The notes under the pieces were generated by a model. That model did not search any database. It saw nothing but the letters and a program-made list of their open reading frames with translations, and had not been told where the DNA came from. Shown piece after piece: positions 125-32,975 of a stretch of DNA of 33,015 bases (position 1 is the first letter of the stretch; each line of letters begins with the position of its first letter). A program made the position numbers and the translations under genes. Source of the stretch: a virus. The DNA lies in IMG/VR virus record IMGVR_UViG_3300036978_000557, positions 1 to 33,015 of that record. One strand, written 5' to 3'.

Positions 125-203
125 GCAAAAAACCCGTAACCCGTAAAGGTTCCGGGCGAACCTCGGTTACCCCGTTTCAAACCCGTACCAAACCCGTAAG
201 GCG
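125..203 (+). repeat. Left copy of a genome-end inverted repeat with CCCGTA iterons
   Basis: The module has a 23-bp block (125-147), a 21-bp spacer (148-168) and a 35-bp block (169-203). The first block is a perfect inverted match to 32953-32975. The second matches 32897-32931 with one mismatch (position 188). Spacers have equal length but unrelated sequence. CCCGTA occurs at 133, 140, 182 and 193, with CCCGTT at 171; the 171/182/193 sites are 11 bp apart, about one helical turn. The left spacer holds its own dyad (GGTTC/GAACC). It lies just upstream of the first rightward gene, so it may be an operator, an origin iteron array or both. Confidence 0.85.
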
Positions 204-236
204 CGCGAGGCTTCCCCGCCGGGTTAGGGGACTGGA

Positions 237-770
237 ATGACCACCACTCTCAGCATTGACGCAGGACTACACGGCTTAGGATGCGGACTATTCGACGGTT
301 TGGAACTTATAGCCGCTTGGTACGCTTCCCCGGGCGGTTATGGGCGCGGACCGGCTCGGTGGCGCGCAGTTATAGCGGCGGGACTCGCTCCGCTGGAAAC
401 TATGGCCATAAGTCCCGACACGGTAGCCATAGAGACCATGCAAATCTATAATCGAGCATCATCGCGAGGTGATCCAGCCGATATTCTGGAGGTGCAGGGC
501 GTCTGTGGCGCTATATCTGGATGGGGTCCGTTCGCTGGGTCCACGCTGGTCGGGTACGCTCCGCGTGCGTGGAAAGGCGCGGTCCCCCAGGCCGTCTACG
601 CCGCCAGAGTGGACGCCTACCTCGCGAGGCGCGGGTGGAGCTCGCGGGTGTCACCGCACCCAGCTGCGCGGCACCACGACGTCTGCCACGGCATCGGGGT
701 GGGCCTCCATCACCTCGGACTTGTCGTCGCAGGAAAAAGCTGCTACCCTGCTCCCGGCCTGTCGTTGTAG
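237..770 (+). CDS. RuvC-like Holliday junction resolvase (RNase H fold)
   Basis: This 177-residue protein resembles phage RuvC-type resolvases, which cut branched DNA before or during packaging. The opening strand is LSIDAGLHGLG with the expected first acidic residue at D8. The second acidic residue lies in VAIET (E66). A C-terminal HHDVCH segment places D148 and H151 where RuvC has its last acidic pair, so the final position is His rather than Asp. The length is close to bacterial RuvC. The start is an ATG behind AGGGGA. It sits directly before the terminase genes, a usual place for a resolvase that clears junctions ahead of packaging. The fold call is fairly safe; the exact substrate is inferred. 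Confidence 0.65.
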   Translation: MTTTLSIDAGLHGLGCGLFDGLELIAAWYASPGGYGRGPARWRAVIAAGLAPLETMAISPDTVAIETMQIYNRASSRGDPADILEVQGVCGAISGWGPFAGSTLVGYAPRAWKGAVPQAVYAARVDAYLARRGWSSRVSPHPAARHHDVCHGIGVGLHHLGLVVAGKSCYPAPGLSL

Positions 771-797
771 CGCCTCCCCTTTGAGCGTGCTCGCCAC

Positions 798-1244
798 TTG
801 AACGTACCCCGCACACAACTGACCACCCTCCAGCTCGCGTGCATCCAGCACCTCGTAGCGGATGGGTGGTCCGTTCAACGCTGCCTCGATCACTACCACA
901 TCCCAAAGGCAACGTGGTACAACCAGTGGCGCAACGACGGGCGGTTTCTGCCTGCGATAGATGAGGCCAAGCGGGTGCAGCGCGAGGGCGTGTGGGCGAG
1001 CATCGCGGCCTCGGGTGTGCGCGCGGCTCAGGTGCTCGACGACATAATGATGGACCCGATGTCCAAAGAGTCGGTGCGGGTGCAAGCGGCCACCACGCTG
1101 CTGGACCGTGCCAACTACCTCAAAGCGGAAGCCGCCGCAGCAGAGGTCGTTCCGTACGCCACGCGCGACGAAATGGTGGCGGCGTTGGCCTCCATCCCCG
1201 TCGATGTGCTCGAGGCCGCACTGGCCGCGCGGGTCAAGCCATGA
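798..1244 (+). CDS. Terminase small subunit (probable)
   Basis: This 148-residue protein should bind phage DNA and hand it to the large subunit. The N-terminal half carries a helix-turn-helix-like stretch (LACIQHLVADGWSVQRCLDH, then IPKATWYNQW), typical of small terminases that mark the packaging site. The C-terminal half is helical and alanine-rich, fitting an oligomerisation region. The start is a TTG with no clear ribosome binding site. The preceding resolvase ends at 770 in the same reading frame with one TAG and no other stop between, so readthrough or an unusual start is possible. Its stop overlaps the next start as ATGA, indicating translational coupling. The call rests on the HTH and on the adjacent large terminase. 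Confidence 0.65.
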   Translation: MNVPRTQLTTLQLACIQHLVADGWSVQRCLDHYHIPKATWYNQWRNDGRFLPAIDEAKRVQREGVWASIAASGVRAAQVLDDIMMDPMSKESVRVQAATTLLDRANYLKAEAAAAEVVPYATRDEMVAALASIPVDVLEAALAARVKP

Positions 1245-2566
1245 TGCTTCGGGTACTGGCTACCTTGCGAGACCGCCAGCTCATGCTGTTCCAAGCCTCG
1301 CCGGCGCTGGTGGGGTTCATGCGTTCGACGGCACGGCGCATACTGGTCCGCGCTGCCAACCGCGTCGGCAAGACGAAGCACGCCGCCGCCAAGCTCGCCT
1401 CGCTCATGCTCGAGCGCGCCGGTGGTCGGTACCGCGCGGTCGCTGTTAACTACCAGCAGTCCATCGCGGTGGTCGGGCAGTACCTCGCGAACTTTCTGCC
1501 TGCGGACCAGCTGGCGTCCAACTGCCGGTTCAGTTTGGAAAACGGATGGACACACCAGCTCATCGTGCTCCGCAACGGCACAACGTGTGAGATTCGAAGC
1601 TGCGAGCAGGCGGCTATCTCACACGCGGGCAGCGACCTCGACGGCGTGTGGCTCGATGAGGTTCCGCCCAGTTTCATATTGCAGGAAAACTTGTACCGCG
1701 TGAAAGCCCGCGACGGTTGGGTGTGGATAACTGCCACCCCCATCGGTCGCCCAGTCGAGTACCTCCGCAAAGTGCTTGCCGACGAAGACACCACCTGGGT
1801 GGAGCACGTCGCGCCCCTGTCGGCATCCAACTGCCCTTGGTACTCGGAGGCACAGGTCGAGGCGTGGGTCGCAGAGGCGCGGCTGTTCCCCGACAGCTAC
1901 GAGCAGCGGATCAACGGCGCGTGGGAAGGAACGACCAGCGAGCGGACGTTTAGCGGGTTCGACTCGACGTGCTTGATCAACGCGGAGCACCCGCTGCCCA
2001 AGGCTTGCCGCATCGGGGTGGGCCTCGACCACGGCGAGCACGCTGGGTCACAGGTCGCCGTGTTGATCGCATGGAACAGCGACGGCGTGTGGGCGCTCGA
2101 TGAGGAAGTCAGCACCAAAGCGACGACGCCCGCCGACGACGCAAAGGCCGTGCGGCGGATGCTCATGCGAAACGGCATGGACATCCACCAAGTCGATGTG
2201 TGGGTCGGCGACATCAACAGCGCCGGCAAAGCGCAGGCGGGTTTTCGCGTCAACGACGTGCTCGCCTACGAGCTCGCAAAGGACGCTGGACACCATCGGC
2301 AAGGGTTCACTATCGGCACACCGGTCAAAGGCAAGGGCAGCGTTGACTACGGTGAAAAGCTGCTCAACTCCGCGTTCCTGCTGCATAAGTTATGGGTCGC
2401 CCCTCGATGTGTCGCACTTATCAAAGGGCTCAAGCACTCCAAGGGCATCAAAGCGGATGAAAGCCTCAAACACGCCCTCGACGCACTCCGATACATCGCC
2501 TATGCCCCCCTCTCTGCCATGACCGGTCAGCGGCACGCCGCAACCCGCTACCAACTGTCACTTTAG
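1241..2566 (+). CDS. Terminase large subunit (ATPase-nuclease packaging motor)
   Basis: This 441-residue protein pumps DNA into the prohead and cuts it. The ATPase part has a Walker A-like ANRVGKT (residues 39-45), a Walker B VWLDE (136-140) and a coupling-type ITATP (163-167). The RNase H-like nuclease part follows, with GLDHGEHAGS (D263), WVGDINSAGK (D324) and a late HALDALRY (D414). The length and domain order are normal. The frame is open upstream to about 992, but the ATG at 1241 overlaps the small-subunit stop and begins right at the conserved domain, so it is preferred. The portal gene follows after 8 bp. Confidence 0.9.
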   Translation: MMLRVLATLRDRQLMLFQASPALVGFMRSTARRILVRAANRVGKTKHAAAKLASLMLERAGGRYRAVAVNYQQSIAVVGQYLANFLPADQLASNCRFSLENGWTHQLIVLRNGTTCEIRSCEQAAISHAGSDLDGVWLDEVPPSFILQENLYRVKARDGWVWITATPIGRPVEYLRKVLADEDTTWVEHVAPLSASNCPWYSEAQVEAWVAEARLFPDSYEQRINGAWEGTTSERTFSGFDSTCLINAEHPLPKACRIGVGLDHGEHAGSQVAVLIAWNSDGVWALDEEVSTKATTPADDAKAVRRMLMRNGMDIHQVDVWVGDINSAGKAQAGFRVNDVLAYELAKDAGHHRQGFTIGTPVKGKGSVDYGEKLLNSAFLLHKLWVAPRCVALIKGLKHSKGIKADESLKHALDALRYIAYAPLSAMTGQRHAATRYQLSL

Positions 2567-2574
2567 GAGCTACC

Positions 2575-4029
2575 ATGCTGCAACCTGAGAACCCCAACGA
2601 CCAAGCCCGCTGGACGATGACCCGCCTACGCCGCAACATGTTGCAGGGAACGTGGGAGCAAGAGATCCAAGAGCGGATGCGGGAGCAGATGGGCCTCACC
2701 AACGTGGGCAACCTCGGTCGCCCGTCCACCTCGGTCAACTTGCTCGAGAACACCACCGACCAGACGGCGATCATCTACGACGCCGCGCCCACCGTAACCA
2801 ACCCGGCCTTCGACCCTGAGCAGGCTAAGGCGTGGAGCGACACCGTCAACGGTGCCCACCTTTGGGGCATCATGCAGGACGTGTGCAGTAAGACGGTCGG
2901 CCTGCGTGAGTGCTTCTTGTGGGTGGTCCCGACCGCCTCGGGTATGCAGCTGGAGATCGTAACGCCCGATGAGATCGTGGTGCTCAAGACCACCGGGGAC
3001 GCCTCGACCCCGACCGCGCTGAAGCGGGCGGTGACGTTTGCCGTCACCAGCGCGCTCACCGGCAAAGTGGAGCACATCGATACATGGGAGTGTTGGGATG
3101 TGTCGGATCCGACCGCGCCGACACACACCGTGTTGGACGGCGAGGGCAACGACATCACCGCCGACGTCTACCCCGACGACCAGGGCACTTACCTTTACGT
3201 CGATGAGCAGGGGCCGTACCTGCCCTGCGTGCTGTATCGGGCGCGATACACCGGCGATACATTCGACCCGTACTGGGGCTCGGGACTGGTACACGGCACG
3301 CTGGACATCGGCATTGCGTGGACCGTGTGGTCCGTCTGCCTCAGAAACAACAGCTGGCCGCAGTGGTACCTCGTTGACGGTGTGGTACCCGGCCAAAGCA
3401 TCGGCGACACACCCAACATGCTCGACGGGGTGGCAGCGCCTCCCGGCACTATCGAGCTCGCGCCCAACTCCATCATCCGGTTTAAAAGCGAGGGTGGGCC
3501 GGGTAGCGCGAAGGTGGGGCAGCTCACGCCGTGTGACGCGAAGCTCATGGCCGAAGCGATTATGATAAAACAGAACACGATCCTCAACAACGTCGGCATC
3601 CACCCCGACGACTTGAGCAACGCAGGCCAGCCGATGAGCGGCGTGGCCATCCAGCTCAAGAAGTCGTCAAGCCGCAAGATCGCAACGGCGATGGTTCCTA
3701 TGTTCCGCGACGCCGACTCCAAACTGTACAACGTCATGGCGCGCGTCCACAACGTGTTCTACGCCGACAGCGAGCAGGGCATCCCGATGTTGCCCACGGA
3801 GGGTTGGCAGATCCAGTACAACCTGCCCGAAATGTCCACCGATGAGTTTCTCGCGGACCTCGCCAAAGACGAAACGCTCATCGAGCTTGGCCTGCTGTCC
3901 AAAGTAGACGTCGCGATGAAGTTCTACTCCCTGACCGACCCAGCCGCCGCCATCCGCAAGCTGCAAGAAGTCGCGCAGTACAACCTCATGTTCCCGTTCG
4001 TTCCTCCGTCCACCAAACCAAAGTTCTAA
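2575..4029 (+). CDS. Portal protein
   Basis: This 484-residue protein is called the portal, the ring at one capsid vertex through which DNA passes. It lies between the large terminase and the head genes and has the expected size. The sequence has a mixed alpha/beta body, a region resembling portal stem and wing segments (LMAEAIMIKQNTILNNVGIH), then SGVAIQLKKSSSRK, a pattern seen near the C-terminal part of SPP1/HK97-type portals. The ATG follows GGAGCTACC, a good ribosome binding site with the same leader style as several neighbours. No fused head-morphogenesis domain is visible. Confidence 0.75.
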   Translation: MLQPENPNDQARWTMTRLRRNMLQGTWEQEIQERMREQMGLTNVGNLGRPSTSVNLLENTTDQTAIIYDAAPTVTNPAFDPEQAKAWSDTVNGAHLWGIMQDVCSKTVGLRECFLWVVPTASGMQLEIVTPDEIVVLKTTGDASTPTALKRAVTFAVTSALTGKVEHIDTWECWDVSDPTAPTHTVLDGEGNDITADVYPDDQGTYLYVDEQGPYLPCVLYRARYTGDTFDPYWGSGLVHGTLDIGIAWTVWSVCLRNNSWPQWYLVDGVVPGQSIGDTPNMLDGVAAPPGTIELAPNSIIRFKSEGGPGSAKVGQLTPCDAKLMAEAIMIKQNTILNNVGIHPDDLSNAGQPMSGVAIQLKKSSSRKIATAMVPMFRDADSKLYNVMARVHNVFYADSEQGIPMLPTEGWQIQYNLPEMSTDEFLADLAKDETLIELGLLSKVDVAMKFYSLTDPAAAIRKLQEVAQYNLMFPFVPPSTKPKF

Positions 4030-4038
4030 GGAGTCTCT

Positions 4039-4680
4039 ATGGCAACCGAAACCACCGAAGCCGAAGCCCGCATCCAGCAACTGATCACCGAACGCAACGC
4101 CGCGCGCTCGGACCTCCAAGAGGCGCGAGCGGAGATCGCAACGCTCACCGAAGCAGGCACCGCCACCAAAGGCGCGACGGAGTCTGCTGTCGCAGCTGCG
4201 CGCGCTGAAATGCAGGCGCGCATCACGGAGCTGGAGTCGTCGCTCCGTCGCACCACCAACCGCTCCCTGCTGCTCGCGGACAAGATCCCCGAAGACGGCA
4301 TGGACGATCTTTTGGAGTACCTGGACTACCAGTACAGCAAGCTCGAGGCCGGTGCTGACGGCACAGCCAAACCAGAGTTTGCGGACTGGTACAAGGGCGC
4401 GAGGCGCGACAACAAGGTGTTGCGGGCAGCGATGAAGCCCTCGGTGGCGGCAAAGGCGGCAGAGGTTGAAGGCGAGACCGTCGAGACCGTCGAGGCCGCG
4501 CCGGTCAAAGCGGCACCCGCAGCTCGTACCGCCATCCCTGCCAAACCCAACGTGGTGCCGGTTCGACCCGGGGACACGGGCAAAGAGATCGATATCTCAA
4601 AGCTTAAACATGGCACCGCAGAGTTCGCCGCAGCTAAGGCTCGGTTGAAGCAGTTAGCGTTTCCGTCCGTGCGGCAGTAA
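4039..4680 (+). CDS. Probable capsid scaffolding protein
   Basis: This 213-residue protein sits between portal and capsid genes, where scaffold genes usually lie. Residues 1-75 form a charged heptad-rich coiled coil. The middle has a short helical segment (DGMDDLLEYLDYQYSKLEA). A low-complexity Ala/Val/Glu linker is followed by a short basic helical tail, a common layout for scaffolds whose C-terminal end binds the capsid protein. No serine-protease motif is seen in or near it, so this phage appears to lack a recognisable prohead protease. The start follows AAGGAGTCTCT. The role is inferred from position and composition. Confidence 0.5.
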   Translation: MATETTEAEARIQQLITERNAARSDLQEARAEIATLTEAGTATKGATESAVAAARAEMQARITELESSLRRTTNRSLLLADKIPEDGMDDLLEYLDYQYSKLEAGADGTAKPEFADWYKGARRDNKVLRAAMKPSVAAKAAEVEGETVETVEAAPVKAAPAARTAIPAKPNVVPVRPGDTGKEIDISKLKHGTAEFAAAKARLKQLAFPSVRQ

Positions 4681-4840
4681 AAAGTAACTTATAACTTATA
4701 GCGTATGCGGCTTGCCAACCGGGACCATAGCCGGTACCGTAGAGGCAACGCCCGCCCCACGTCAAGGGGCTCCGATGATCGGTCGCCCACGTTACGGGTC
4801 GGAGTTCCCCCCCTCAACCCTTGATTTTAGAGTGTGACTC
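4681..4840 (+). promoter_or_regulatory. Structured leader before the capsid gene with competing stems
   Basis: This is the longest untranslated gap in the late region. ACCGG (4718-4722) pairs with CCGGT (4731-4735). GCCCC (4754-4758) pairs with GGGGC (4766-4770). The same GGGG can instead pair with CCCC at 4807-4810 while CTCCGA (4770-4775) pairs with TCGGAG (4799-4804), leaving a TT bulge. CCGA/TCGG (4772-4782) is a further small hairpin. The mutually exclusive stems resemble a regulatory leader. No U-run follows, so it is not a typical terminator. No tRNA T-arm is present. The function is unknown. Confidence 0.5.
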
Positions 4841-5764
4841 ATGGCCGCAGATACCAATGCCTCCCTCGCCGGCGACCTCGGCATTACCGCATATTTGAAC
4901 CTCCAGTTTTTCGACCTGCTTCACGAAACGCGCGACTTGAAGGAAGTTTGCACCTACGTTCCGTTTACAGCGGGAGCAGGGAGTGCAACCCAGAAGCTGC
5001 GTTTTCTCCAGCCCGTCGATCCGATGACCCAGCCCGGTGAAATCACCGCGCCCGCGATCACCAACTGGACCACCGCGAACAAGACGATCACCGTCGCCAA
5101 GTCGAACCTTTACCGCAGCGGCTCCGACCTCGCGTACATCACCGGCGTTATCCAAGCGGACAACCTGGTTATGTCGTTCCTCAAGTCCGTCGTGTACCAC
5201 CGCTCCAGCCTCATCGCGGCGTTGGGCTCCGGTTTCACCGCGAACACCGCAGTCGGCTCCACCGGCGTGGCGCTTACCGTGGATACAGCCTATGCAGGCC
5301 TGTTCAGTCTCAGGAAGGCCTTAGTTGAAGGTCAGATCGACCTCGTTACGCACGCGACCGGAATCACCCAGTTCATGGCCTCGCTCCGTGGCGAGACCGC
5401 TACCCCGCTGCAAATCGCCCCTGAGACTCAGGGCGCGCTTTCCAACGACGGCAGCGGCAACATCCAGTTCAGCTGGATGGGCATCAACTTCCGCAGCCAC
5501 GCCTCGGTGCCCAAGATCAACGCCAACGCGGACTACAGCGGCTTTATGTCCAGCCCCCGCGCCATTGCGTTCACCGAAGCACCGGTTGCGAACTTCCTCA
5601 GCCGTCAGTCGTTCAACCCGCAGACCGTGGCCGGTGAGACCGCCATCATCTGTCAGGATCTCAGCACCGAATCTATCGGCGCTCGCTCCTACATCTGCCA
5701 CTACTACCCCGGTGTGGCTGAAATGGAAGACGCGCGCGGCGTCCAGGTTGTGTCGGCGGTCTGA
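4841..5764 (+). CDS. Probable major capsid protein
   Basis: This 307-residue protein is the best candidate for the shell subunit. It follows the scaffold candidate, has the length of small HK97-fold capsid proteins, and has the expected alternation of a helical N-terminal region (about 1-40), beta-rich segments, a long central helix near residues 105-130 and a beta-rich C-terminal half. No long N-terminal delta domain is seen, consistent with a separate scaffold. The Shine-Dalgarno is weak (AGAG in TTTTAGAGTGTGACTC), a degraded form of the TTTTAGGAG leader before other head genes. A strong hairpin follows at 5780-5802. No definitive motif can be named, so the call rests on order and size. Confidence 0.65.
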   Translation: MAADTNASLAGDLGITAYLNLQFFDLLHETRDLKEVCTYVPFTAGAGSATQKLRFLQPVDPMTQPGEITAPAITNWTTANKTITVAKSNLYRSGSDLAYITGVIQADNLVMSFLKSVVYHRSSLIAALGSGFTANTAVGSTGVALTVDTAYAGLFSLRKALVEGQIDLVTHATGITQFMASLRGETATPLQIAPETQGALSNDGSGNIQFSWMGINFRSHASVPKINANADYSGFMSSPRAIAFTEAPVANFLSRQSFNPQTVAGETAIICQDLSTESIGARSYICHYYPGVAEMEDARGVQVVSAV

Positions 5765-5779
5765 TAGGTAGATAGTCGA

Positions 5780-5814
5780 GGGGGTCCGACACCCGGACCC
5801 CCCGTACCCTTTTT
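5780..5814 (+). terminator. Hairpin after the capsid gene, terminator-like
   Basis: GGGGGTCCG (5780-5788) pairs perfectly with CGGACCCCC (5794-5802) over a five-base loop. A T-run at 5810-5814 begins seven bases after the stem, so it is imperfect as an intrinsic terminator. It could partly stop transcription or protect the 3' end of capsid mRNA. Transcription must continue to some extent, since head and tail genes follow. Confidence 0.6.
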
Positions 5815-5827
5815 AGGAGTCTCTCTC

Positions 5828-6520
5828 ATGGATCTCACTGCCAAGCAGTTTTCGCCGCAAGCGTTCAGCGAGGTCTCAGAGACCCGCGACCGCCTCCCCG
5901 TGCAAATGATCAACAACAAGCACGAGTTGTTCCACAAGCCCTTCGATTGGGAGCTTAAAAACGGCGCTTGGCTGCCGGTGTTGTCGGTGATGCCTTTCAT
6001 GGCAAGCCTGAACAACTACGATATGGATGGCGTGAAGGACTGCGAAAACGTCCGCCAAATCTTTAGGAACAAGGGCTGCGCTTGCATTCCCAACGGCGAC
6101 CAGCGCCTCGGCAAATATGCCAACTACATGGCGACCGTCGATGCGTACAACCCCGCCATGAACAGCGTCGGGAAGTACTGGATCACGATTTTCGATAGCC
6201 CCATCATGGTTGGTAATCGGGTCAAGTGGGCCCGCGACGAAAAGGGCTACGACGCCTTCCGGCAGCTGCTGGTGGACGTCGGCATTGTGACCCTCAACGC
6301 GACCATCGCGGGCATGGTCATTGATCGCAAAGTCGAGTCCCTGACCTCGATGCATCAGATCCCCGTGACCTCGAAGTCCAAGCAGCTCGCGGTCGAAACC
6401 CTCGAGCGCGACATCGCGGCAATGCGCGCCTCGCTGCTGGGCCTCGACCAGCCCGTCCCCGCCGCGCAACCCAAGCGCCGGCGCTTCACTTCTACACCTG
6501 CAACTGAGGATGAATCCTAA
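5828..6520 (+). CDS. Putative virion protein, unknown
   Basis: This 230-residue protein follows the capsid gene behind a good ribosome binding site (TTTTAGGAG). It has a compact mixed alpha/beta N-terminal two thirds, with Cys pairs around NKGCACIPNG, then a helical region (SKQLAVETLERDIAAMRASL) and a proline- and arginine-rich tail. No family was recognised. Its position suggests a head-associated or minor capsid protein. The stop overlaps the next start as TAATG, so the two are likely made together. Confidence 0.6.
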   Translation: MDLTAKQFSPQAFSEVSETRDRLPVQMINNKHELFHKPFDWELKNGAWLPVLSVMPFMASLNNYDMDGVKDCENVRQIFRNKGCACIPNGDQRLGKYANYMATVDAYNPAMNSVGKYWITIFDSPIMVGNRVKWARDEKGYDAFRQLLVDVGIVTLNATIAGMVIDRKVESLTSMHQIPVTSKSKQLAVETLERDIAAMRASLLGLDQPVPAAQPKRRRFTSTPATEDES

Positions 6521-6777
6521 TGCCCTACGCACCCGAAGCCCTCGAGGCTACCCGCTCCGCGTTGCAGGCCGCGCTCGCCGCTTGCGAGGCCTACGACCCT
6601 GCCGACTCCGCACCGCTCGATGAGGCGCTTGTGGCGCTCGAGCAGGCGGTCGCCGGAATGAAGGGCGATACCGAAGAAGAGGACATGGACATGTCCAAAA
6701 TGGACCTTGCCGCCAAGTCGCCCGAAGACAAGGCGACGCTAAAAGCCAAGCTCGCTAAGGCGGCGTTCGGTGGCTAG
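6520..6777 (+). CDS. Small acidic helical protein, unknown
   Basis: This 85-residue protein is coupled to the upstream gene by TAATG. It is very acidic in the middle (GDTEEEDMDMSKMD) and helical at both ends. The C-terminal part (SPEDKATLKAKLAKAAFGG) is basic. No family was recognised. Its place among head genes suggests a virion or assembly role. Confidence 0.55.
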   Translation: MPYAPEALEATRSALQAALAACEAYDPADSAPLDEALVALEQAVAGMKGDTEEEDMDMSKMDLAAKSPEDKATLKAKLAKAAFGG

Positions 6778-6949
6778 CGATCCCAACGCCCCCAGCAAGG
6801 TCGTTGGCTTCGGCTACGGCGAGCAACCCAACAGCCGCAGGGCAATGGGAGAGGTCACCAAAGCGATGATCCAAGGCGGTGTCAAGCCCGCCGATGCAGA
6901 ACGCAAGGCACGCCAACTTGCGGTAGACTGGGACCGGAAAAACCGGTAG
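6770..6949 (+). CDS. Small 59-residue protein, unknown
   Basis: A GTG at 6770 opens a 59-codon frame overlapping the end of the previous gene by 8 bp and closing at TAG 6947-6949. The product begins MASDPNAPSK and has a helical second half (GEVTKAMIQGGVKPADAERK) with many charged residues. The tight packing between flanking genes and the non-repetitive composition make it likely to be real. The 3' end contains a small ACCGG/CCGGT dyad (6933-6947). No function can be assigned. Confidence 0.5.
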   Translation: MASDPNAPSKVVGFGYGEQPNSRRAMGEVTKAMIQGGVKPADAERKARQLAVDWDRKNR

Positions 6950-6988
6950 CCCGGAAGAGACTTTCAACCCCCCGTTTTAGGAGATACC

Positions 6989-7540
6989 ATGCCCGCATCC
7001 ATCAAGAGCACTACCCCGTTTCAGTTCTATCGCCGCTTGGCTTATGCGGGCGATGGTGTTGCTGAGCAGACGATCACTGCCGCGTTGACGATCACTCCGT
7101 TTTACGAAGAGATCATCGCGCTCAACCCTTCGACGGGTACCCGCGTTGTGACCCTGCCGACTGCGGCAGCAGGCGCTCGCAAGGGCATGTGGCACCGCAT
7201 CGTTAACAGCGGAACAACCTACAACTTGACCATCAACAAGCCCGCTGCGACCACGCTCTGCACGCTTGCGCCTGGGCAGTTCTGCGATGTCGTGTTTGGC
7301 ACCGTTTGGACGCTGGTGGGGGCTTCCCCGACCTCGACGAAATCCTCGGAGCAGACCGGCACCGGCGCACCTCAGGTAGTCGCGCACGGCCTGAATGTAG
7401 TGCCGTCGCTCTACTACGCAGTGCCCAGCAACCTGACCGGCGGTGCCTACGTCGTATCTGCGGAAAGTGCCGATAATAACAACGTTACCTTGACGGTCAC
7501 GTTGGGCGAGAAGTTCCGCGTCATCGCGTTCGCCAAATGA
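6989..7540 (+). CDS. Beta-rich virion protein, head decoration or fibre candidate
   Basis: This 183-residue protein has a strong Shine-Dalgarno (TTTTAGGAGATACC). The sequence is rich in Thr, Val and Ala with repeated strand-like segments. The middle (LNPSTGTRVVTLPTAAAG, then IVNSGTTYNLTINKPA) resembles a beta motif seen in many phage head-fibre and surface proteins. A Ser/Thr/Gly linker near residues 112-125 separates a second beta domain ending in LGEKFRVIAF. Its position in the head module suggests a decoration or head-fibre protein. No enzymatic motif is present. Confidence 0.55.
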   Translation: MPASIKSTTPFQFYRRLAYAGDGVAEQTITAALTITPFYEEIIALNPSTGTRVVTLPTAAAGARKGMWHRIVNSGTTYNLTINKPAATTLCTLAPGQFCDVVFGTVWTLVGASPTSTKSSEQTGTGAPQVVAHGLNVVPSLYYAVPSNLTGGAYVVSAESADNNNVTLTVTLGEKFRVIAFAK

Positions 7541-7752
7541 ACCCCATCGCACCCAAACGCAAGGTCGACGTGCTCCACCTCGTTGCCGTGATCGCCGGCG
7601 CTATCGCGGGCATCGCTGGTGGGCAGCAGCTCGCGAGCCGCCCAGCGCCGTGCCCGGCGTGCCTCGAGTGCGCGCCCTGTCCCGAAGTGGTGGTCGCCAC
7701 TCCCGCCGACTGCGAGCCCCCAGCAGCAGCAGCTCCGGCAGTGGTGCCCTAA
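7537..7752 (+). CDS. Small one-span membrane protein with Cys-Pro motifs
   Basis: This 71-residue protein starts with ATGA overlap onto the previous stop. A basic N-terminus (NPIAPKRK) precedes a hydrophobic segment (LHLVAVIAGAIAGIAGG, about residues 13-29), then a Pro/Cys-rich tail with CPAC, CAPCP and a later Cys. It looks like an N-in, C-out membrane protein. No lipobox is seen. A membrane protein between head genes is unusual. A role in lysis, such as a pinholin or spanin-like part, is conceivable but unsupported. Confidence 0.5.
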   Translation: MNPIAPKRKVDVLHLVAVIAGAIAGIAGGQQLASRPAPCPACLECAPCPEVVVATPADCEPPAAAAPAVVP

Positions 7753-8511
7753 GTGCCCACCTACTCCGTAGATTCGCAGCTGCCGTCGTTCTACGAGCGC
7801 GAGTGCTCCGCGACGATCACGTTGCCTGTTTACGCGGGTGGGTCGTCGCCGGTGGTCGCCACCAGCGGCACGTTTACGTTGTACGACGTAACCAAGGCCA
7901 CCATTACAACGGGCGCGGTGACGTTCCCCGGGGGCATTGCGACGTTCACCGTAGCAGCTGCCTCCCTGCCTGCTACGACGGCGCTGTCGGCGTTCTGGCA
8001 AGAGGAGTGGGTGTTGGTGTTTGGGTCGCACGTCGAGACCTTCCGGCGCGATGCGTTCTTGTGCCTTAGGTTGCTGCACAACGTCGTAACGGAGACCATG
8101 CTGGTACGTCGGGTGTCTGACCTCGCCGCTATCCGGCCTCCGACGATCACCAGCTACGAACCGTACATCCAAGAAGCCTGGGGTATCTGTCAACGCACCC
8201 TGCTCCAAGACGGGCGCAGGCCGTACTTGGCGATGAACGACTACGCTTTTGCCGACTGGGTGTGCGCCCTGACCCTTGAGCTCGCGTTCAGGGACTTCGC
8301 GACGTACAGCGGCGAGGGCAGGTTTAGCACGGAGGCGGACAAGTACCGCGCCGATGCCGACAAGGCGTTCGACCGGTTAAAACTTGAATACGACCTCAGC
8401 GAACAGAACGTGCGTACCGCCGCTATCCCCGGCCAAAGTGCCCAACCTGTAATCTATACCAACTACAACCCCGCCTCCGCATACCGGATGTGGGGTCCAC
8501 GGAGATTCTGA
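7753..8511 (+). CDS. Head-tail connector (adaptor)-like protein
   Basis: This 252-residue protein begins at a GTG one base after the previous stop. An N-terminal beta domain (about 1-115) is followed by a helical C-terminal domain that resembles gp6/gp15-type adaptors, with helices around PYIQEAWGICQRTLLQDGR, DWVCALTLELAFRDFA and YRADADKAFDRLKLEYD. Adaptors extend the portal and receive neck proteins. The helical pattern and the position between head and tail genes support this. The fused N-terminal beta domain is an addition to the usual short adaptor. Confidence 0.5.
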   Translation: MPTYSVDSQLPSFYERECSATITLPVYAGGSSPVVATSGTFTLYDVTKATITTGAVTFPGGIATFTVAAASLPATTALSAFWQEEWVLVFGSHVETFRRDAFLCLRLLHNVVTETMLVRRVSDLAAIRPPTITSYEPYIQEAWGICQRTLLQDGRRPYLAMNDYAFADWVCALTLELAFRDFATYSGEGRFSTEADKYRADADKAFDRLKLEYDLSEQNVRTAAIPGQSAQPVIYTNYNPASAYRMWGPRRF

Positions 8512-8512
8512 T

Positions 8513-8911
8513 ATGCCTTACGTTTCAACCGTTGTTGGTCCTACAACCTCTGTAATCAAAGGTCGCGCGACCTATCGCTGGACTATCAGCGAGACCGGTG
8601 CGGCACCCACCGACACTTGGACGATCACCGGCGCGCCGGCGGTCGGCACCGTATCGCTGTACCGCGCCAACTTGACAGCCGGGACCGGCGTCACGATCAA
8701 CCCCCGCCTCGGTAGGACGCTTGCGTTTACGACCTCGACCAACGATGTGATCGGAGTGAGCGCGACTACCGCTGCGCTGATCAACGACGGCACGGCGCTA
8801 AAGTATTCGGGGCTTACCTCTGGTAAAATCTTCGGGAGGTCCCTGCCAAGCAACGCCGCCGCCGATCACTCGGTCTCGACTGAGATTGTGATCATCGAAG
8901 GTGTCGAATGA
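8513..8911 (+). CDS. Small beta-rich virion protein, unknown
   Basis: This 132-residue protein starts one base after the connector-like gene. It is rich in Thr, Val, Gly and Ala with regular strand-like segments (YRWTISETGAAPTDTWTITG) and no catalytic motif. It overlaps the next gene by four bases (ATGA type), so the two are probably co-translated. It may be a decoration, fibre or collar protein. Confidence 0.5.
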   Translation: MPYVSTVVGPTTSVIKGRATYRWTISETGAAPTDTWTITGAPAVGTVSLYRANLTAGTGVTINPRLGRTLAFTTSTNDVIGVSATTAALINDGTALKYSGLTSGKIFGRSLPSNAAADHSVSTEIVIIEGVE

Positions 8912-10265: not shown

Positions 10266-10304
10266 CTTTTATGTGCTATACCCCCCAATCCATAGAGGTG
10301 TCTC

Positions 10305-10811: not shown

Positions 10812-10826
10812 TCAGGAGCCACCAAC

Positions 10827-11372: not shown

Positions 11373-11400
11373 TCTTACCCCGCACACACTGGAGGGTTCC

Positions 11401-12514: not shown

Positions 12515-12515
12515 T

Positions 12516-22453: not shown

Positions 22454-24534
22454 ACTGCCTCCCATACCTGCAAGCGTCCACTAACATCGCGGCGTTCGTC
22501 GGCGCTCTTCGACCACACCCGGAACATCGACGGCTCCACCTTGACGGGTACGTTGGGCATGTACTGCTGCATACCGGCGACCATCACGGCGCACATCCGC
22601 TCACAGGCCTCGGCAGCGCGTGCCTCGGGTGCCTCAAACACAAACTCATCGTGGATCTCGATCACCGGGCGGCATCCAAACAGCGCGCTCGTTTCATGCG
22701 GGTGGCGGATACGTCGCTCCCAAAACACACCAAACCCGGTGTAGCACTCGGAACTCGCGGCAAACAACGCCGACTTCATGCCGTCGGCGGTCAAGCCTTG
22801 GAAGTAGCTATTGCACCCCTGCGAGTAGTTGCACCCGCCGCGCAGGCGACCACTGCGAGGCTGGACCAACGTAAACTCACCGCCTCCCCGCTCCACTTTA
22901 GCCGACACATCCGCAAAAAACTTTCGCATTTCCGGCCAGCGGTTTAGCCAAGCCGCCTTGAATCGCCCGGCCCTGTCGAGAGCCTCGGTGTCGTCGTCGC
23001 CGAAGATCACAGTGAAGTCGGCTTTGCTGATTTGCTTCCTGACCGTCGCTATAAACTTTTCCGGCCCCATCCCGCCCGGAAAGCCAAAGTTGATTTGCTT
23101 GGCCGCTTGCCGCATCACCGCGACCTGCGGGTCTTTTTGCTTACGCCGCACGGCGGCTTCTTGGTAGGTGATGCCCAGCAGCTCGGCAGCGAGCGCGAGG
23201 TGGAGGTCGCGCCCCGCCTTGAGTGCTTCTGCCATCTCGGAATACCATCCCTGGTCAAGGCAGTGCTGCGCGAGGGCGACCAACTCGATACCGCTGTAGT
23301 CCGCCTGAATGAAGACCGTACCCGGTCGCGCTTCGATGCACTCCCGATAGCCACCGGCTTTGGGCAGGTTCTGGAGGTTTAGCGGCTTGCCGCAACTGGT
23401 GCGCCCCGACTCCACCAGCACGTTGAAGCGGGCGGTGATCGGGTGGTCGCTGCCGCTGCGGAGCGGCTCGATGTAGGTGGCGAGGTTGTGTTCGTCGGCA
23501 GAGATCGACGCCAACGCTAACAGGATCGGGACGTCCTGCTCCGACCGTTCGCCGGTGAGCTCATCTGACATCCACACCCGCACGGTGGGCTGTCTCCGCG
23601 TGGGTGCCGCGAGCAGCACTTCTTTAGCGGTCGAAGTCTTGCCCCCGGCAGTTTGGGGTGCCTCCAGCCCCTCGGATGCGTAGGCGTCGGCGACCTCGCG
23701 CGCCAACCTGGTGGTGTCCTTCGACCCGTCCTTAAAGCGGAACAGGCTACCGGTGAGCGCATCGCGCACGCTGCGGCTGTTGGCCTCCAGCAGCTGCGCG
23801 AGCGCATCCACCTTGGCGCGGTTGGTCCGCACTCCCCACGCGCTCATCAGCTTGAGCGCGAAGTCGGCGGCGGCTTGGCTTTGCTCATCGGTGACCATTC
23901 CGGTCACCGCATCGACGACGCCGCTGTGCGTGTCGCTCGCTTGCGCGCACCACATCTGGTACGTCTGCACAACGTCGCGGATGGGGTAATCGCGCGCCTC
24001 GGCGGGCCACTGGTCGAGCGGCACGCCGTCGAGCTCGGCGTACCGCAACCGCCACGCATCGGGCGATGCCTTGTCGTCGGATATGTCCACCCCGAATCGG
24101 GTGAGCATGATCGCCGACATCGAAAACGACCCCTGCTTTTTGCTGCCGAAGTCGCTGCTAAAGTTCCCCAGGGCGAGCTGGATCAACTGCTCGCGGATTT
24201 GCGTGCAGCTGATCCTGCCGTGCGCGTAGGCCTCAAAAATCCACGGCACCAGCGTAGGGTCGGCAGCGCCACAGACGGCGAGATCGTAGGCGACGTTGTG
24301 ACCGACAATCCGGGTGGACGTGTCGAGCAGCGCGAGGCGCAGATCGTGGAGCCCCGCCGCCTTGTCCAGCAGCTTGCCGCCATTGACCAAGGGCAGTGGG
24401 CCGTTGCTGCCGATGCGGTGGGGGTAGGCGGACAGGGCGCTCACGCATACCAGCGGCGGTATCGGTAGGCCCGGCTGGACAAGGTGGGTTTCAGTGTCGA
24501 AGACGTAGAGTTTGACAGGAGTGGTGGTGGTCAT
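22450..24534 (-). CDS. Family A DNA polymerase with 3'-5' exonuclease
   Basis: This 694-residue enzyme copies phage DNA. The exonuclease domain has FDTET (D13, E15), GHNVAYDL (D84) and RDYPIRDV. The polymerase domain has motif A ADYSGIEL (D412), motif B RQAAKQINFGFPGGMG (R475, K479, F483) and motif C EIHDEF (D629). F483 matches E. coli Phe762. The position of Tyr766 is Gly487, in an FPGG turn that I recall from some phage polymerases. No 5'-3' exonuclease domain is present. The ATG has no clear ribosome binding site and lies just after a strong hairpin (24544-24570). Confidence 0.9.
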   Translation of the reverse strand: MTTTTPVKLYVFDTETHLVQPGLPIPPLVCVSALSAYPHRIGSNGPLPLVNGGKLLDKAAGLHDLRLALLDTSTRIVGHNVAYDLAVCGAADPTLVPWIFEAYAHGRISCTQIREQLIQLALGNFSSDFGSKKQGSFSMSAIMLTRFGVDISDDKASPDAWRLRYAELDGVPLDQWPAEARDYPIRDVVQTYQMWCAQASDTHSGVVDAVTGMVTDEQSQAAADFALKLMSAWGVRTNRAKVDALAQLLEANSRSVRDALTGSLFRFKDGSKDTTRLAREVADAYASEGLEAPQTAGGKTSTAKEVLLAAPTRRQPTVRVWMSDELTGERSEQDVPILLALASISADEHNLATYIEPLRSGSDHPITARFNVLVESGRTSCGKPLNLQNLPKAGGYRECIEARPGTVFIQADYSGIELVALAQHCLDQGWYSEMAEALKAGRDLHLALAAELLGITYQEAAVRRKQKDPQVAVMRQAAKQINFGFPGGMGPEKFIATVRKQISKADFTVIFGDDDTEALDRAGRFKAAWLNRWPEMRKFFADVSAKVERGGGEFTLVQPRSGRLRGGCNYSQGCNSYFQGLTADGMKSALFAASSECYTGFGVFWERRIRHPHETSALFGCRPVIEIHDEFVFEAPEARAAEACERMCAVMVAGMQQYMPNVPVKVEPSMFRVWSKSADERRDVSGRLQVWEAV

Positions 24535-30045: not shown

Positions 30046-30065
30046 CCCCCGGGGCGTTTATATTT

Positions 30066-32567
30066 TCAATAGGGCACGCCATCGGCGTCGGGCACATAGG
30101 CGGGGAGCACGTCCACCACGGGTTCGGATGGGGGTGGCGCATATTTTGGCGGGTCGGTGATCCGCGCGCCTCGCGGGGGGACGGCGTGTTTTTTCTGCGC
30201 GGCGGACGGGTGCCACACCCAGCAGCGCCTCGCGCCCGTTGTCCGCTTGACCCACCCAAAGCGGATCATGGCGAGGCCGATGTTGGTACCGTTGGGCCTC
30301 GCGGCCCCGAAGCAAAGCGCCGCCACTTTTTCGAGCAAGTCCGATGCGCTCCACTCGGTGTTGCTGTGCTTGACGATCACCTGGTACACCGCGTCTTCGA
30401 CGCTGTCGTCGGCGAGGTACTGCTGGTTGCGGACTCCGATCTCCGTCTGCTCCGCAGCTGTCGGCCACCAGTGGACGCCCGCTGTGATCTTAGCGTCCGC
30501 CTCTGCCCACAGCTGCGGAGCAACCGCCTTGACCCGTGCGAGGTCGATGCGTCCGCTGCGTACCTCGAGCGTCCAAAACCGGCGGTTTTCGCTGCTGCGG
30601 TCCACAAGGTAGAGTTTGACGTTGGTGTTGCCAAAAAACACGCATTGCCTTGGGATATCTTCAAGCTCGGTGCCGTGCATCCTCACGCCGGTGTCGCGGC
30701 GGCGGTCGATAAAAGTCATATATTCGACGTGGTTTTTCCACGTCGGCATTTCTGCCATTTCGTGGATCAAGTAGTTCGGGAGCACCATAATGCTACGCTT
30801 TTCGTCTTGCGGAACCGGTGCCGGGTTGAACCACGACTCATCCGGGCACAACGCGCGCAACAGCTCCGTCTTGCCCTCGCCGCCATCGGCGGCGTAAAGC
30901 ACCAGCATCGAGTCCGCTTTGCTGCCCGGCTTGCGAGCTCGCACCACGGCGCTCATCATCCACCACATGAGGCAGCGCGCGTTGTAGGCGTCCTCGGTGA
31001 CGTCCGGTGCGGCTCCAAACAGAGCGCGGGCTTCGTCGCTGAAACGCTCGGTGCCGTCCCACGACAGCGAGTCGAAGTAGTCGGTGATCGGGTTGCGCTG
31101 GTCCTCGGCAGCGCGGGCATAGATGGCCTCGCGGGTGTCGCCGGCTGTCGGGTGGACGTCCTGGGCGTCTAGCTGCACGCGGATCTCCCTCGACAGCGCG
31201 TCGGTGAGCGGTGACGACTTGCCCTCCGACTCCACCATCACCCGCCGCTTGAAACTATCGGTCCAGAACATCGCATCGAACGGCGGCATCGACAGCGCCC
31301 GCACAACGTTCCCGAATGTGGACTCGGGTCGGTTGTTGGAGTTCGTTCGCAGGCCACCTTGCTGGGCCTGCTGAGCACGTTGGGCCTGCTGGGCCTGCTT
31401 GGCGGCGGCGTCCGCTGCGCGAGCTGCTGCGCGGGTGTGCTGAGTCATTGCCGCGACTGCGGAGCGGCGGGCGTTGGTCGCGTTGAGTCCCACGCCGATG
31501 GTGCTTGCGTGGCGCATAGCGAGCGCGGTTAGGACGCCGACGTCGAGCACTCCCGATGCAAGGAGCGCGGCGAGGTAGGCGCGACCATCGGAGCCCCGCG
31601 ACAGCGCGTCGAGGTTGGGGTCGTTGTTGTGCGCGGCGATGGTCTCGACGTCGCCGGCCTCGACGTCGCTGTGTGGAGCGTCGGCGGCAAGCGTCGGCGT
31701 CCTCTTGCGGAAAGCTCCGGCGATGCTCGCGCCGACGTCCTCGGAGGCACCGGCCTGCAAGCCACGGCTAAACGCGCTGCTGTGGTCCTTAGAGCCCTCG
31801 CTGGACCACTGCGACTGGACGTGCGCGAACACTGCCAGGGCGACCGCAGGGGCCAGAGAGCGCGCCCCAACCCGCAGGCCTGCCCGATACCCTTGCGCGT
31901 TGGCAACGTCGTTGCGTTTGCCGCGTGGGGTGCCCAGCAGCAGGGCGGCGACCTCGTCGAGCGCGTCGAGCGACTCCGGCGAGGTCTCGACGTCGGCGTA
32001 GTCGTCAAGCTCCACCGGGTGCGCGGCGTGTTGGTGGGTGGCGTTGTAGCGGGGGAGCAGCGCGTGGTACGCCATCGGCAGCTCGGCGAGCTGCGCGCGA
32101 GGTGGCGGCACGCAGTCAAAGTGGATGCAGCTGTACCCGGAGTTGCTGCGAACATCGAACCCGGCGATGCCCAACACCGCCGAATCGAACCCCAGCGCCA
32201 TGTCCTCAGTATCTGGGTACTGAAACCACAGGTGAAACCCACCGCCGCTGGTCTCATCGCGGTAGGTCTCTGGTAGGGTCCATCCGACGCGCGCGAACAC
32301 CTCGGCAGCAACGAGGCCCTGCTCGGGCTTGGTGTCGAAATCCAGCATCACCACCCCATCGCAAACCGCGATGGAGGGGATGGCGTTCGGCCAGCTGGTC
32401 CACCAGTTGCGGATCACAGTCGGATCCTGCGTGGCGTTTTTCCACCCGTTCGGGGTGCGCGGTTTTTTATTGTCGCCACACGGGAAGACCCAGTAGCCGT
32501 TGCTCGCGGCCTCGAGGGCGACGTCGAGGCGTGGACGGTTGCGGGTCTGCGGGGTAAGAGTATTCAT
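30066..32567 (-). CDS. Primase-polymerase/VirE-like helicase
   Basis: This 833-residue protein probably starts replication. The N-terminal prim-pol domain has DFD (D76, D78), SGGGFHLWF (H112) and DVRSNSGY (D138). A middle linker contains Gln/Ala repeats (391-403). The C-terminal ATPase domain resembles virulence-associated E/D5-type helicases, with a Walker A DGGEGKT (561-567), NYLIHEMAEM (E603), FFGNTN (645-650) and NRRFW (R662, R663). The ATG at 32567 is chosen over an upstream ATG because it follows AAGG and begins just before the conserved domain. It is the second gene of the leftward unit, after the RHH protein. Confidence 0.8.
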   Translation of the reverse strand: MNTLTPQTRNRPRLDVALEAASNGYWVFPCGDNKKPRTPNGWKNATQDPTVIRNWWTSWPNAIPSIAVCDGVVMLDFDTKPEQGLVAAEVFARVGWTLPETYRDETSGGGFHLWFQYPDTEDMALGFDSAVLGIAGFDVRSNSGYSCIHFDCVPPPRAQLAELPMAYHALLPRYNATHQHAAHPVELDDYADVETSPESLDALDEVAALLLGTPRGKRNDVANAQGYRAGLRVGARSLAPAVALAVFAHVQSQWSSEGSKDHSSAFSRGLQAGASEDVGASIAGAFRKRTPTLAADAPHSDVEAGDVETIAAHNNDPNLDALSRGSDGRAYLAALLASGVLDVGVLTALAMRHASTIGVGLNATNARRSAVAAMTQHTRAAARAADAAAKQAQQAQRAQQAQQGGLRTNSNNRPESTFGNVVRALSMPPFDAMFWTDSFKRRVMVESEGKSSPLTDALSREIRVQLDAQDVHPTAGDTREAIYARAAEDQRNPITDYFDSLSWDGTERFSDEARALFGAAPDVTEDAYNARCLMWWMMSAVVRARKPGSKADSMLVLYAADGGEGKTELLRALCPDESWFNPAPVPQDEKRSIMVLPNYLIHEMAEMPTWKNHVEYMTFIDRRRDTGVRMHGTELEDIPRQCVFFGNTNVKLYLVDRSSENRRFWTLEVRSGRIDLARVKAVAPQLWAEADAKITAGVHWWPTAAEQTEIGVRNQQYLADDSVEDAVYQVIVKHSNTEWSASDLLEKVAALCFGAARPNGTNIGLAMIRFGWVKRTTGARRCWVWHPSAAQKKHAVPPRGARITDPPKYAPPPSEPVVDVLPAYVPDADGVPY

Positions 32568-32596
32568 CACTGCCTTGGTTGTGCGAGGTGGTTGAA

Positions 32597-32648
32597 GTGG
32601 CCGGTGGCAGCGTGGTGGCTGTCCCGGCCACGCCCCTTTTTTGGGGCT
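32597..32648 (-). repeat. Two hairpins between RHH and primase genes
   Basis: GTGGCCGG (32597-32604) pairs with CCGGCCAC (32624-32631), extended by GGCAGC/GCTGTC after one bulged T. Next to it GCCCC/GGGGC (32633-32637, 32643-32647) enclose a six-base T-loop on the + strand. No U-run follows in leftward transcription, so these are not clear terminators. They may stabilise mRNA or regulate the primase gene. Confidence 0.55.
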
Positions 32649-32808
32649 AAGAACGTGGTAGAACGAGCACGCCACGCAAGACAAGCTCGAGCACGCGAGA
32701 GAAGTTCTGACCGCTTGAGGTTGTGAGCGCCTGAAGCTGCGCGCGGATCACAGGGTCAAACGTGACAGCGACAACAGGGCGGGTGCGTTTTGCAGTGGTG
32801 GTAGGCAT
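32647..32808 (-). CDS. Ribbon-helix-helix DNA-binding protein
   Basis: This 53-residue protein starts at ATG 32808 and has the Arc/CopG plan: a strand (RPVVAVTF), a helix (DPVIRAQLQALTTS), a turn (SGQN), a second helix (FSRVLELVLRGVLV). Such proteins bind short DNA repeats as dimers. It is the first gene in the leftward unit, right beside the CCCGTA iterons, so it is a natural candidate to bind them. It has no Shine-Dalgarno; a promoter-like element just upstream would give a leaderless mRNA. No metal-binding domain is present. Confidence 0.65.
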   Translation of the reverse strand: MPTTTAKRTRPVVAVTFDPVIRAQLQALTTSSGQNFSRVLELVLRGVLVLPRS

Positions 32809-32814
32809 GTAGGG

Positions 32815-32843
32815 AGTATTACACGCGGTCGAAACCTCAGCAA
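32815..32843 (-). promoter_or_regulatory. Candidate early leftward promoter for leaderless mRNA
   Basis: On the - strand TTGCTG (32838-32843) and AATACT (32815-32820) are 17 bases apart, with an extended TG before the -10. The predicted start falls near the ATG at 32808, which lacks a ribosome binding site. The iteron module begins about 54 bases upstream. Both hexamers are weak matches. Confidence 0.35.
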
Positions 32844-32896
32844 GCGGCCTCGGCAATCCTCGAGAGTGTTTATTCTGACGGGCCTGTCACTTTCCA

Positions 32897-32975
32897 CGCC
32901 TTACGGGTTTGATACGGGTTTGAAACGGGGTTTGGCAGGTTGGAGCGCGATGTTTACGGGTTACGGGTTTTTTGC
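32897..32975 (-). repeat. Right copy of the genome-end inverted repeat with CCCGTA iterons
   Basis: This is the reverse-complement partner of the left module. The 35-bp block (32897-32931) has one mismatch to 169-203. The 23-bp block (32953-32975) is identical to 125-147. The 21-bp spacer is unrelated in sequence. On the - strand CCCGTA sites mirror those on the left, again with an 11-bp step in the inner block. It lies just upstream of the RHH gene. The remaining 40 bases to the end show only C-rich DNA. Confidence 0.85.

Follow-up and report, generated by a model that had tools for sequence, protein, structure and literature searches.

Mirrored iteron modules at the joining ends of a tailed-phage genome as probable halves of a single replication origin

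The window, a 33,015-bp stretch of viral DNA, encodes tape measure, tail and endolysin genes together with a terminase and a family-A DNA polymerase (22450–24534). Its left end carries a gene for a 177-residue protein (237–770, plus strand), conserved in two related contigs, G001 and G002, and followed by the terminase large subunit (1241–2566, plus strand). At a cut-off of E 0.001 the 177-residue protein matched no family; the PHROGs it did hit, at E 0.08–0.33, are unnamed. The right end contains two minus-strand genes, one for an 833-residue protein combining a Prim-Pol with a VapE-like helicase (30066–32567) and one for a 53-residue ribbon-helix-helix (RHH)-like protein (32647–32808). The latter was assigned by a structural match in which CopG was best, at a non-significant E of 0.87, and gave zero matches in Pfam and PHROGs searched up to E 10.

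Megablast of positions 1–16000 against phage records returned zero matches, as did tblastn of the 177-residue protein and of 2575–4029 and 4841–5764, and tblastn of the terminase gave one weak match. Distant tblastn records were obtained with the helicase (456) and the DNA polymerase (210), all below 60% identity. A host search of genome contigs found relatives in 0 of 89 stretches for the helicase and 0 of 76 for the terminase. Rfam yielded 0 matches on the window and a tRNA search likewise 0. A promoter scan of 32560–33015 found 0 sites; in G001 the scan found one leftward site, matching at 9 of 12 positions.

Between the coding regions and the contig ends lie two inverted copies of a 79-nt module (125–203 and 32897–32975), a symmetry claimed in the original prediction and confirmed by alignment. 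Each arm consists of an outer block (125–147; 32953–32975), a 21-bp spacer (148–168; 32932–32952) and an inner block (169–203; 32897–32931), reading on the plus strand at the 5′ end and on the minus strand at the 3′ end. The arms agree at 23 of 23 positions in the outer block, 9 of 21 in the spacer and 34 of 35 in the inner block, or 66 of 79 overall (84% by another comparison). CCCGTA starts at 133, 140, 182 and 193, mirrored at 32902, 32913, 32955 and 32962, and the steps of 7 bp in the outer block and 11 bp in the inner block had been read correctly. The word AACCCGTA, found at 131 and 138 in the outer block of the 5′-end arm and at 180 and 191 in its inner block, where a degenerate CCCCGTT precedes it, has eight copies in the 33,015 bp, every one inside the arms; 200 dinucleotide shuffles gave a mean of 0.575 and a maximum of 4. 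When the first 500 bp are compared with the reverse-complemented last 500 bp, exact identity extends over at most 23 bp, against no more than 11 in any of 40 shuffles. The spacers had been described as equal in length and unrelated in sequence; the length of 21 bp holds, but the letters are not wholly unrelated, as a degenerate unit, AACCT, stands at the same place in both (159 in the 5′-end arm) and, read from the sequence, continues the 11-bp phasing (approximately 159, 169, 180, 191). An imperfect palindrome noticed by eye at 32876–32889, TGACGGGCCTGTCA, which has one change in G001, is a candidate RHH operator or promoter element.

A DNA pattern scan of IMG/VR gave five stretches, G001 among them. 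Candidates with CCCGTAA repeats before the start codons of other genes (L008, L010, L011) or with a tandem run (L009) were judged unrelated by eye. G001, at 75–80% DNA identity to the window, reads through the junction of the window's ends with both arms adjacent inside the contig, and this comparison of sequences supports the joining of the ends into one region that had been proposed. It is the one relative with both arms: its outer iteron block is identical, its spacer has the same length, and the spacing within all four arms is the same (7/42/11). The distance between the arms differs, 184 in the window versus 158 in G001, and the centre of about 164 bp given originally is exact only if the contig ends miss no base. 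Inverted ends of this kind could be the product of the assembler, and the window does break in a potential hairpin, but this explanation has practically no chance of being right: G001, a separate contig, contradicts it with the same two arms and diverged spacers and flanks, and G002 begins inside an arm, at window position 160.

In the order of G001, the C-rich 32976–33015 at the contig end is joined to 1–124, in which a C-tract is followed by a TATAG-rich AT stretch and a G-tract, with 19-nt stem arms at 1–19 and 79–97. In its joined form the centre has the potential to fold into a hairpin of C-tract, TATAG-rich stretch and G-tract (z = −3.18 in the window, −3.78 in G001), within which the window contig breaks. 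Elsewhere z is −2.7 in L030, −1.2 in L032, −1.1 in L041 and about 0 in L026 and L044; the stem-loop was accordingly dropped as a universal signature, being strong only in clade A and L030. GC skew was rejected as evidence for an origin, giving no support: it is weak near the window ends, and its sign there is opposite to that of the usual leading-strand pattern.

The helicase is of the PICI/SaPI PriRep type (Rep/Pri-Rep, VapE/D5 kind). Its profile matches 7pds (PriRep1) with E 7.6e-52 over the helicase core, the match ending before the C-terminal domain. Structural comparison gave a Foldseek match at E 5.6e-14 and, by VIA-align, Z 19.1 over 351 residues, with 7pds PriRep1 and the 7ola SaPI5 primase-helicase matched; the nearest solved relatives are thus helicase-initiators of staphylococcal satellite islands. 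Residues 720–792 (321–393 of the model) match winged-helix domains, with a best Z of 8.7 over 67 residues; confidence in the model is modest (mean pLDDT 62.6, roughly 50–70 in the C-terminal domain). The predicted C-terminal winged helix is the most likely means by which the helicase would read the iterons.

Relatives were sought with the terminase as query, which favours finding loci beside a terminase. Of 84, 80 were kept (79 loci), the examination stopping short of L062–L117, which have weaker or partial terminase matches; L042, L043, L055, L056 and L061, each with less than 520 bp upstream, were left out. The iteron scan was run without L045, which begins in the centre, and L046, which repeats the L044 region, and the comparisons of iteron spacing and RHH identity without L023 and L022, the latter starting inside the right iterons. 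In these phages the helicase gene has beside it a centre surrounded by other iteron words, whose orientation is inverted in three of the five clades (A, B and E) and mixed in clade C. Clade B has two to three copies of GATCAACA on the left and six inverted on the right (6 of 6 loci scanned), clade C has TTGCACAC in mixed orientation (2 of 2 loci scanned), and the one clade E locus scanned has two and two inverted. Neighbouring origin iterons in clades B and C step by 9–12, unlike the 7 and 11 bp of the arms. The best 8-mer count exceeds all 300 shuffles in the window, G001, L030, L026, L032 and L028; in clade E the best count of 4, reached by 1 of 300 shuffles, is common to the iteron CGAACGAA and an unrelated word, CAGCGGGG. 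Convincing iterons were not found in clade D (L041), where 9 of 300 shuffles reach the best count. No element was seen in L054 within 1.5 kb upstream, nor in L031 within 1800–3240, which was read, 1–1800 being covered by word search only. The idea of a DnaA-trio was set aside as a common feature because [T/A]A[G/A] triplets form runs of up to 9 in clade C alone, with 2–3 elsewhere.

Clades A, B, C and E all have the element on that side of the helicase gene which faces the terminase, with the helicase on either strand. Such a position would suit a cos or pac site, in which the repeats are terminase-binding sites and the contig ends are the physical ends of the genome, and four contigs (the window, G002, L022 and L045) have an end that falls in or beside the element. 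The position of these ends varies, however, being within an arm, among the right iterons or in the centre; the contigs of G001 and of the other loci read in this region continue across the element, and G001 ends elsewhere, in a 140-bp direct repeat located in another gene. With at least one gene (237–770) also separating element and terminase in the window, we regard a packaging site as very improbable.

A stronger contender, though still an unlikely one, is that the RHH protein binds the arms as a twin operator and represses both divergent units simultaneously, the leftward RHH-helicase operon and the one running rightward, with any origin located elsewhere. Each arm does lie just upstream of a divergent unit, as had been noted, 33 bp before the ATG at 237 and 88 bp before the ATG at 32808. 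The 11-bp step of the inner blocks recurs in the RHH arrays of clade B, a separate array upstream of the RHH gene was not seen in the window, and the N-terminal RHH stretch RPVVAVT is unchanged between the window and G001. Nevertheless, the RHH proteins of the window and G001 are only 64% identical although the iterons are identical, as compared with 66 of 73 residues in the winged helix. The RHH gene of clade B comes with a separate, one-sided array, distinct from the origin iterons. A change in this array goes with a change in the RHH N-terminal strand, and the origin iterons remain as they are: identity is 0.40–0.48 across RHH types and 0.76–0.96 within them, and 0.87–0.97 in the origin part. 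L023 has an RHH type and array like those of L024. Because of the covariation in clade B, the RHH protein is judged from sequence less likely than the helicase to read the arms, and its suggested binding there is unsupported and somewhat disfavoured.

A twin operator alone would also leave unexplained the presence of the element in two further settings. Transcription of the helicase gene in clades B and C runs toward it, which makes a helicase operator unlikely, and L032, of clade C, has an iteron-bearing centre with no RHH gene in the helicase-terminase interval. A narrow motif search found no RHH genes in L028, L032, L022 and L031, misses that mean little because it also failed to detect those of L004 and L029.

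A division of labour is conceivable as well, with the RHH protein reading the inner 11-bp block and the helicase the outer 7-bp block, such that copy-number control is coupled to initiation. All arms, including those of G001, have two block types with different steps, and an RHH protein with a Prim-Pol/helicase is the layout of the pRN1 replication operon (PMC4234260, PMC3869888). Both blocks, however, share the same core word, which favours one reader, and we consider dual use improbable.

The reading we prefer is that this circularly mapping phage has a single replication origin, to which each module contributes one half and which is used by the Prim-Pol/VapE helicase encoded next to it; we hold this to be probable, if well short of certain, and the comparison with relatives lends support to the origin interpretation made originally. 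Each half would be a cluster of CCCGTA iterons of fixed geometry, mirroring the other across a hairpin-forming, AT-rich melting site with C/G tracts. The C-terminal winged helix of the helicase would most likely recognise the iterons, one hexamer would be assembled on each arm, and the helicase would then melt the centre and prime both strands, making replication bidirectional. The phage family-A DNA polymerase would extend the primed strands. The RHH protein would most likely repress the RHH-helicase operon from a site at or close to its own promoter, in a copy control resembling that of CopG or ORF56. The sequence itself, the joined ends, the geometry of the arms in one relative, the helicase family and the recurrence of iterons among relatives are observed; the function as an origin, the pairing of proteins with sites, the two hexamers and bidirectional replication are inferred. 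Several findings weigh against the origin reading: clade D lacks convincing iterons, an unrelated word equals the iteron count in clade E, orientation is mixed in clade C, the iteron steps of clades B and C differ from those of the arms, the element of the window is 5′ of the helicase operon, the hairpin is not general, and the AT-richest 24 bp of L026 and L027 fall in the RHH array, outside the centre.

The paired-iteron plan is already known from PICI satellites, and the element in the window would be a variant of it. Two iteron sets flanking an AT-rich region have been published for these satellites, their origins lie immediately 3′ of the rep gene, and the C-terminal domain of Rep binds the iterons and drives autonomous replication. 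The window shares with PICI/SaPI origins a related helicase-initiator and an AT-rich stretch enclosed by two sets of iterons. It differs in that its element lies 5′ of the helicase operon, beyond the RHH gene (in L032 it is directly 3′), that the arms are composite, with 7- and 11-bp steps and a fixed 21-bp spacer, that the centre can form a C/G-tract hairpin, and that an RHH-like gene stands between element and helicase. Its carrier, moreover, is no satellite island but a phage that itself encodes terminase, tape measure, tail and endolysin.

The pRN1 replicon comprises the ORF56 RHH repressor, the ORF904 protein (Prim-Pol, SF3 helicase and winged helix) and a 100-bp stem-loop origin. As in pRN1, an RHH-like gene, assigned here by non-significant matches (E 0.87), lies directly upstream of the Prim-Pol/helicase gene on the same strand; the small RHH protein of pRN1 is described as a repressor with a proposed role in copy-number control (PMC4234260, PMC3869888). 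The stem-loop of G001 and of window positions 1–97, with 19-nt arms and 59 nt between them, is close in size to the 21-nt stem and 58-nt loop predicted for pRN1 at 75 °C. Unlike the window, pRN1 has a stem-loop 3′ of the replication gene and no iteron origin; unlike in pRN1, a strong hairpin is confined here to clade A and L030 and absent from L026 and L044. In phage P4, crr is a separate, distant element. The P4 alpha protein, a helicase-primase, uses a winged helix to bind origin repeats, as is predicted here, although its primase is of the Toprim type (PMC4234260). Bordetella phage BIP-1 likewise encodes a Prim-Pol/helicase/winged-helix protein with a stem-loop beside its gene, but the repeats found there were judged in the same paper not to be an origin (PMC4234260).

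In the open-access literature searched, PMC4234260, PMC6092414, PMC7145576 and PMC7581432 included, no description of such an origin in a complete phage was found. We tentatively suggest, as a possibility somewhat short of even, that a lineage of tailed phages of about 31–33 kb has a satellite-type origin merging paired iterons with a pRN1-like stem-loop, its mirror arms loading two opposed Prim-Pol/VapE hexamers. From one clade to the next the iteron word and its winged-helix reader would be exchanged under a constant plan, in the manner of incompatibility groups, and the RHH switch would evolve its operator code separately, swapping one β-strand with a phased array. A satellite-type origin in an autonomous phage would tie satellite replicons to a phage source, or else point to a solution common to both. 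As an origin the element would be small, amenable to testing and read by a member of a known family. The replacement of iterons by clade would provide a natural data set on how winged-helix initiators change specificity, and the joint change of strand and array in clade B a natural test of RHH recognition.

The window is a complete virus record of 33,015 bp carrying one arm near each end (125-203 and 32897-32975). As originally predicted, the arms are inverted copies, agreeing at 23/23 positions in the outer block, 9/21 in the spacer and 34/35 in the inner block. A scan of the whole window finds AACCCGTA in 4 + 4 copies, all within the arms (mean 0.575 and maximum 4 in 200 shuffled windows). 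With the ends joined, the 443 bp between the start codon of the 53-aa RHH protein and the ATG at 237 hold eight copies, which 0/300 shuffles match. The spacers had also been described as equal in length but unrelated in sequence; the lengths are indeed equal, but AACCT is common to both at the same place. The inner block can thus be read as about four units at 11-bp steps and the outer block as two units at a 7-bp step. The iteron element of the arms is real, conserved and mirror-image. A 41-nt direct repeat elsewhere in the window (21740-21780 and 22117-22157) falls in the interval separating the endolysin gene from that for DNA polymerase; its copies share 95% identity at a distance of 377 bp. 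The endolysin-like gene (20730-21248, minus strand; PHROG 670, E = 5e-15) suggests a bacterial host.

The ends join, as judged by comparison with the relative G001 (IMGVR_UViG_3300011114_000947; 32,802 bp). Compared with the window, this genome is permuted; direct repeats of 140 bp, differing at one position, lie at its termini, and it holds both arms side by side internally, aligning through the junction. The within-arm spacing is 7, 42, 11 in all four arms of the two genomes, whereas the distance between the facing words is 184 bp in the window but 158 bp in G001, so the arms are rigid units joined by a flexible centre. The spacer length, whose variation among relatives had been named as evidence against the proposal, is thus the same in the one relative compared, G001. 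G002, a third contig of the same clade (A), starts inside an arm. Four contigs end in or beside the element at different bases (the window, and G002, L022 and L045 at their starts), perhaps through assembly breaks at hairpins or low-complexity DNA.

Folded as single-stranded DNA, the centre (window 1-110) reaches -30.3 kcal/mol (z = -3.18), and its G001 counterpart has a z of -3.78. The predicted fold is a C-tract/G-tract stem, with arms of 19 nt each in the window separated by 59 nt, and a TATAG-rich AT loop. The clade C centre contains nine consecutive [T/A]A[G/A] triplets resembling a DnaA-trio (L032 3366-3392, minus strand); such runs are ≤3 in the other clades.

The leftward operon encodes the 53-aa protein (32647-32808) followed by an 833-aa Prim-Pol/VapE-like protein (30066-32567). 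Searches of Pfam and PHROGs up to E = 10 gave no match to the former; the homologue in G001 hits two PHROGs, both of unknown function (E = 0.0034 and 0.021). The 53-aa protein is modelled as an N-terminal stretch and then two helices; the top structural match is CopG, in the company of other RHH proteins, with a best E of 0.87 and none significant. Going by this predicted fold, it is likely an RHH protein. The 833-aa protein matches PF09250 (E = 5.1e-22) and PF05272 (E = 9.1e-42). A profile of nine relatives matches PDB 7pds, a VapE-like helicase whose entry title names PriRep1 with dsDNA (E = 7.6e-52), covering the helicase core and leaving the C-terminal domain outside. The structure predicted for residues 400-833 (mean pLDDT 62.6) likewise has 7pds as its best match (Foldseek E = 5.6e-14; Z = 19.1), with the NrS-1 and SaPI5 primase-helicases next. 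Winged-helix domains match model residues 321-393 (protein 720-792), the best with Z = 8.7 over 67 residues; most of the rest score under 8, which the tool labels possibly common.

Terminase searches gave five groups with a readable region: clade A (the window, G001 and, in part, G002), B (six loci scanned), C (L028 and L032), D (L041) and E (L044). Clade B carries GATCAACA two to three times on the left and TGTTGATC six times on the right in 6/6 loci, and sites of the GGTGTGC type number four to five in clade C, in mixed orientation. Clade E has TTCGTTCG twice on the left and CGAACGAA twice on the right, its best count of 4 being reached by 1/300 shuffles and also attained by an unrelated word. 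Clade D shows no iterons beyond shuffle level (9/300 shuffles reach its best count). L044 also contains a long array of 15-bp units (1073-1466), and its minus-strand frame 1117-1530 reads as pentapeptide repeats of the ADLxGA type. In another phage group, CCCGTAACCCGTAAAGGATTCACCATG repeats precede start codons (L010 3190-3235, L011 610-650 and L008 3980-4005).

In clades A, B, C and E the helicase gene has the element on its terminase-facing side, and in A and B the RHH gene intervenes between them; a position beside the terminase is partly ensured by the terminase-based search. The helicase gene runs leftward in A, D and E and rightward in B and C. The element therefore stays put while the gene flips, which speaks for an origin retained alongside its initiator rather than an operator serving the helicase gene. 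That the arms are an operator is the chief alternative, and we regard it as unlikely. From sequence comparison, the element is probably a replication origin of which both modules are halves, with iterons read by the winged-helix domain of the helicase.

In clade B the interval separating the RHH start from the origin iterons holds an extra array of about five modules ~55 bp apart with 11-bp steps inside; in L026 (2690-2980) and L030 (2890-3160), as seen in the longer loci L038 and L040, this spacing is near five helical turns. Two types occur: GTTGTGGmCA-type modules with the RHH N-terminus M(S/P)NP(A/S)TLHVRF (L024, L025, L029 and L030), and ACAACGTATGTAC modules with DSRFNVRF (L026 and L027). 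When one type is compared with the other, RHH residues 1-10 agree at 3-5/10 and the arrays at 0.40-0.48, with residues 11-60 at 43-49/50 and the origin part at 0.87-0.97; within types, arrays agree at 0.76-0.96 and the origin part at 0.87-0.93. The clearest pair is L025 (2598-3150) and L027 (1012-1575), phages otherwise near-identical here whose strand (4/10) and array (0.41) differ together (origin 0.97, RHH body 49/50). Strand and array differ together likewise between L024, L029 or L030 and L026. This looks like a natural specificity swap, the six loci perhaps recording only one or two exchange events. The helicase C-terminus from TFSTSD on is identical in L025, L030 and L038, the contig of L026. 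RHH proteins read DNA with their N-terminal strand. Since strand and array change together, the target of the clade B protein is most likely the extra array rather than the origin iterons. Clade A has no separate RHH array, so the protein may act on the arms there; an imperfect palindrome (32876-32889), present in G001 too, is another candidate site.

Two known types of replicon resemble this arrangement. Reports on pRN1 describe a replicon with three requirements: orf56, there called CopG, for which a role in copy-number control is proposed; a protein combining Prim-Pol, helicase and winged-helix parts; and a stem-loop of 100 bp, whose stem of 21 nt and loop of 58 nt are predicted at 75 C (PMC4234260, PMC3869888). 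The orf56 protein is given an RHH fold in another paper (PMC12117459). The window shares its operon and stem-loop with pRN1, but differs in having iterons and in the position of the stem-loop, which is not 3' of the replication gene. With the PICI satellite islands it shares iterons, but differs in position (the element is 5' of the helicase operon) and lifestyle (phage versus satellite). Because of these departures, the element would, by analogy, work like the origins of both while being a member of neither, and is better viewed as a variant.
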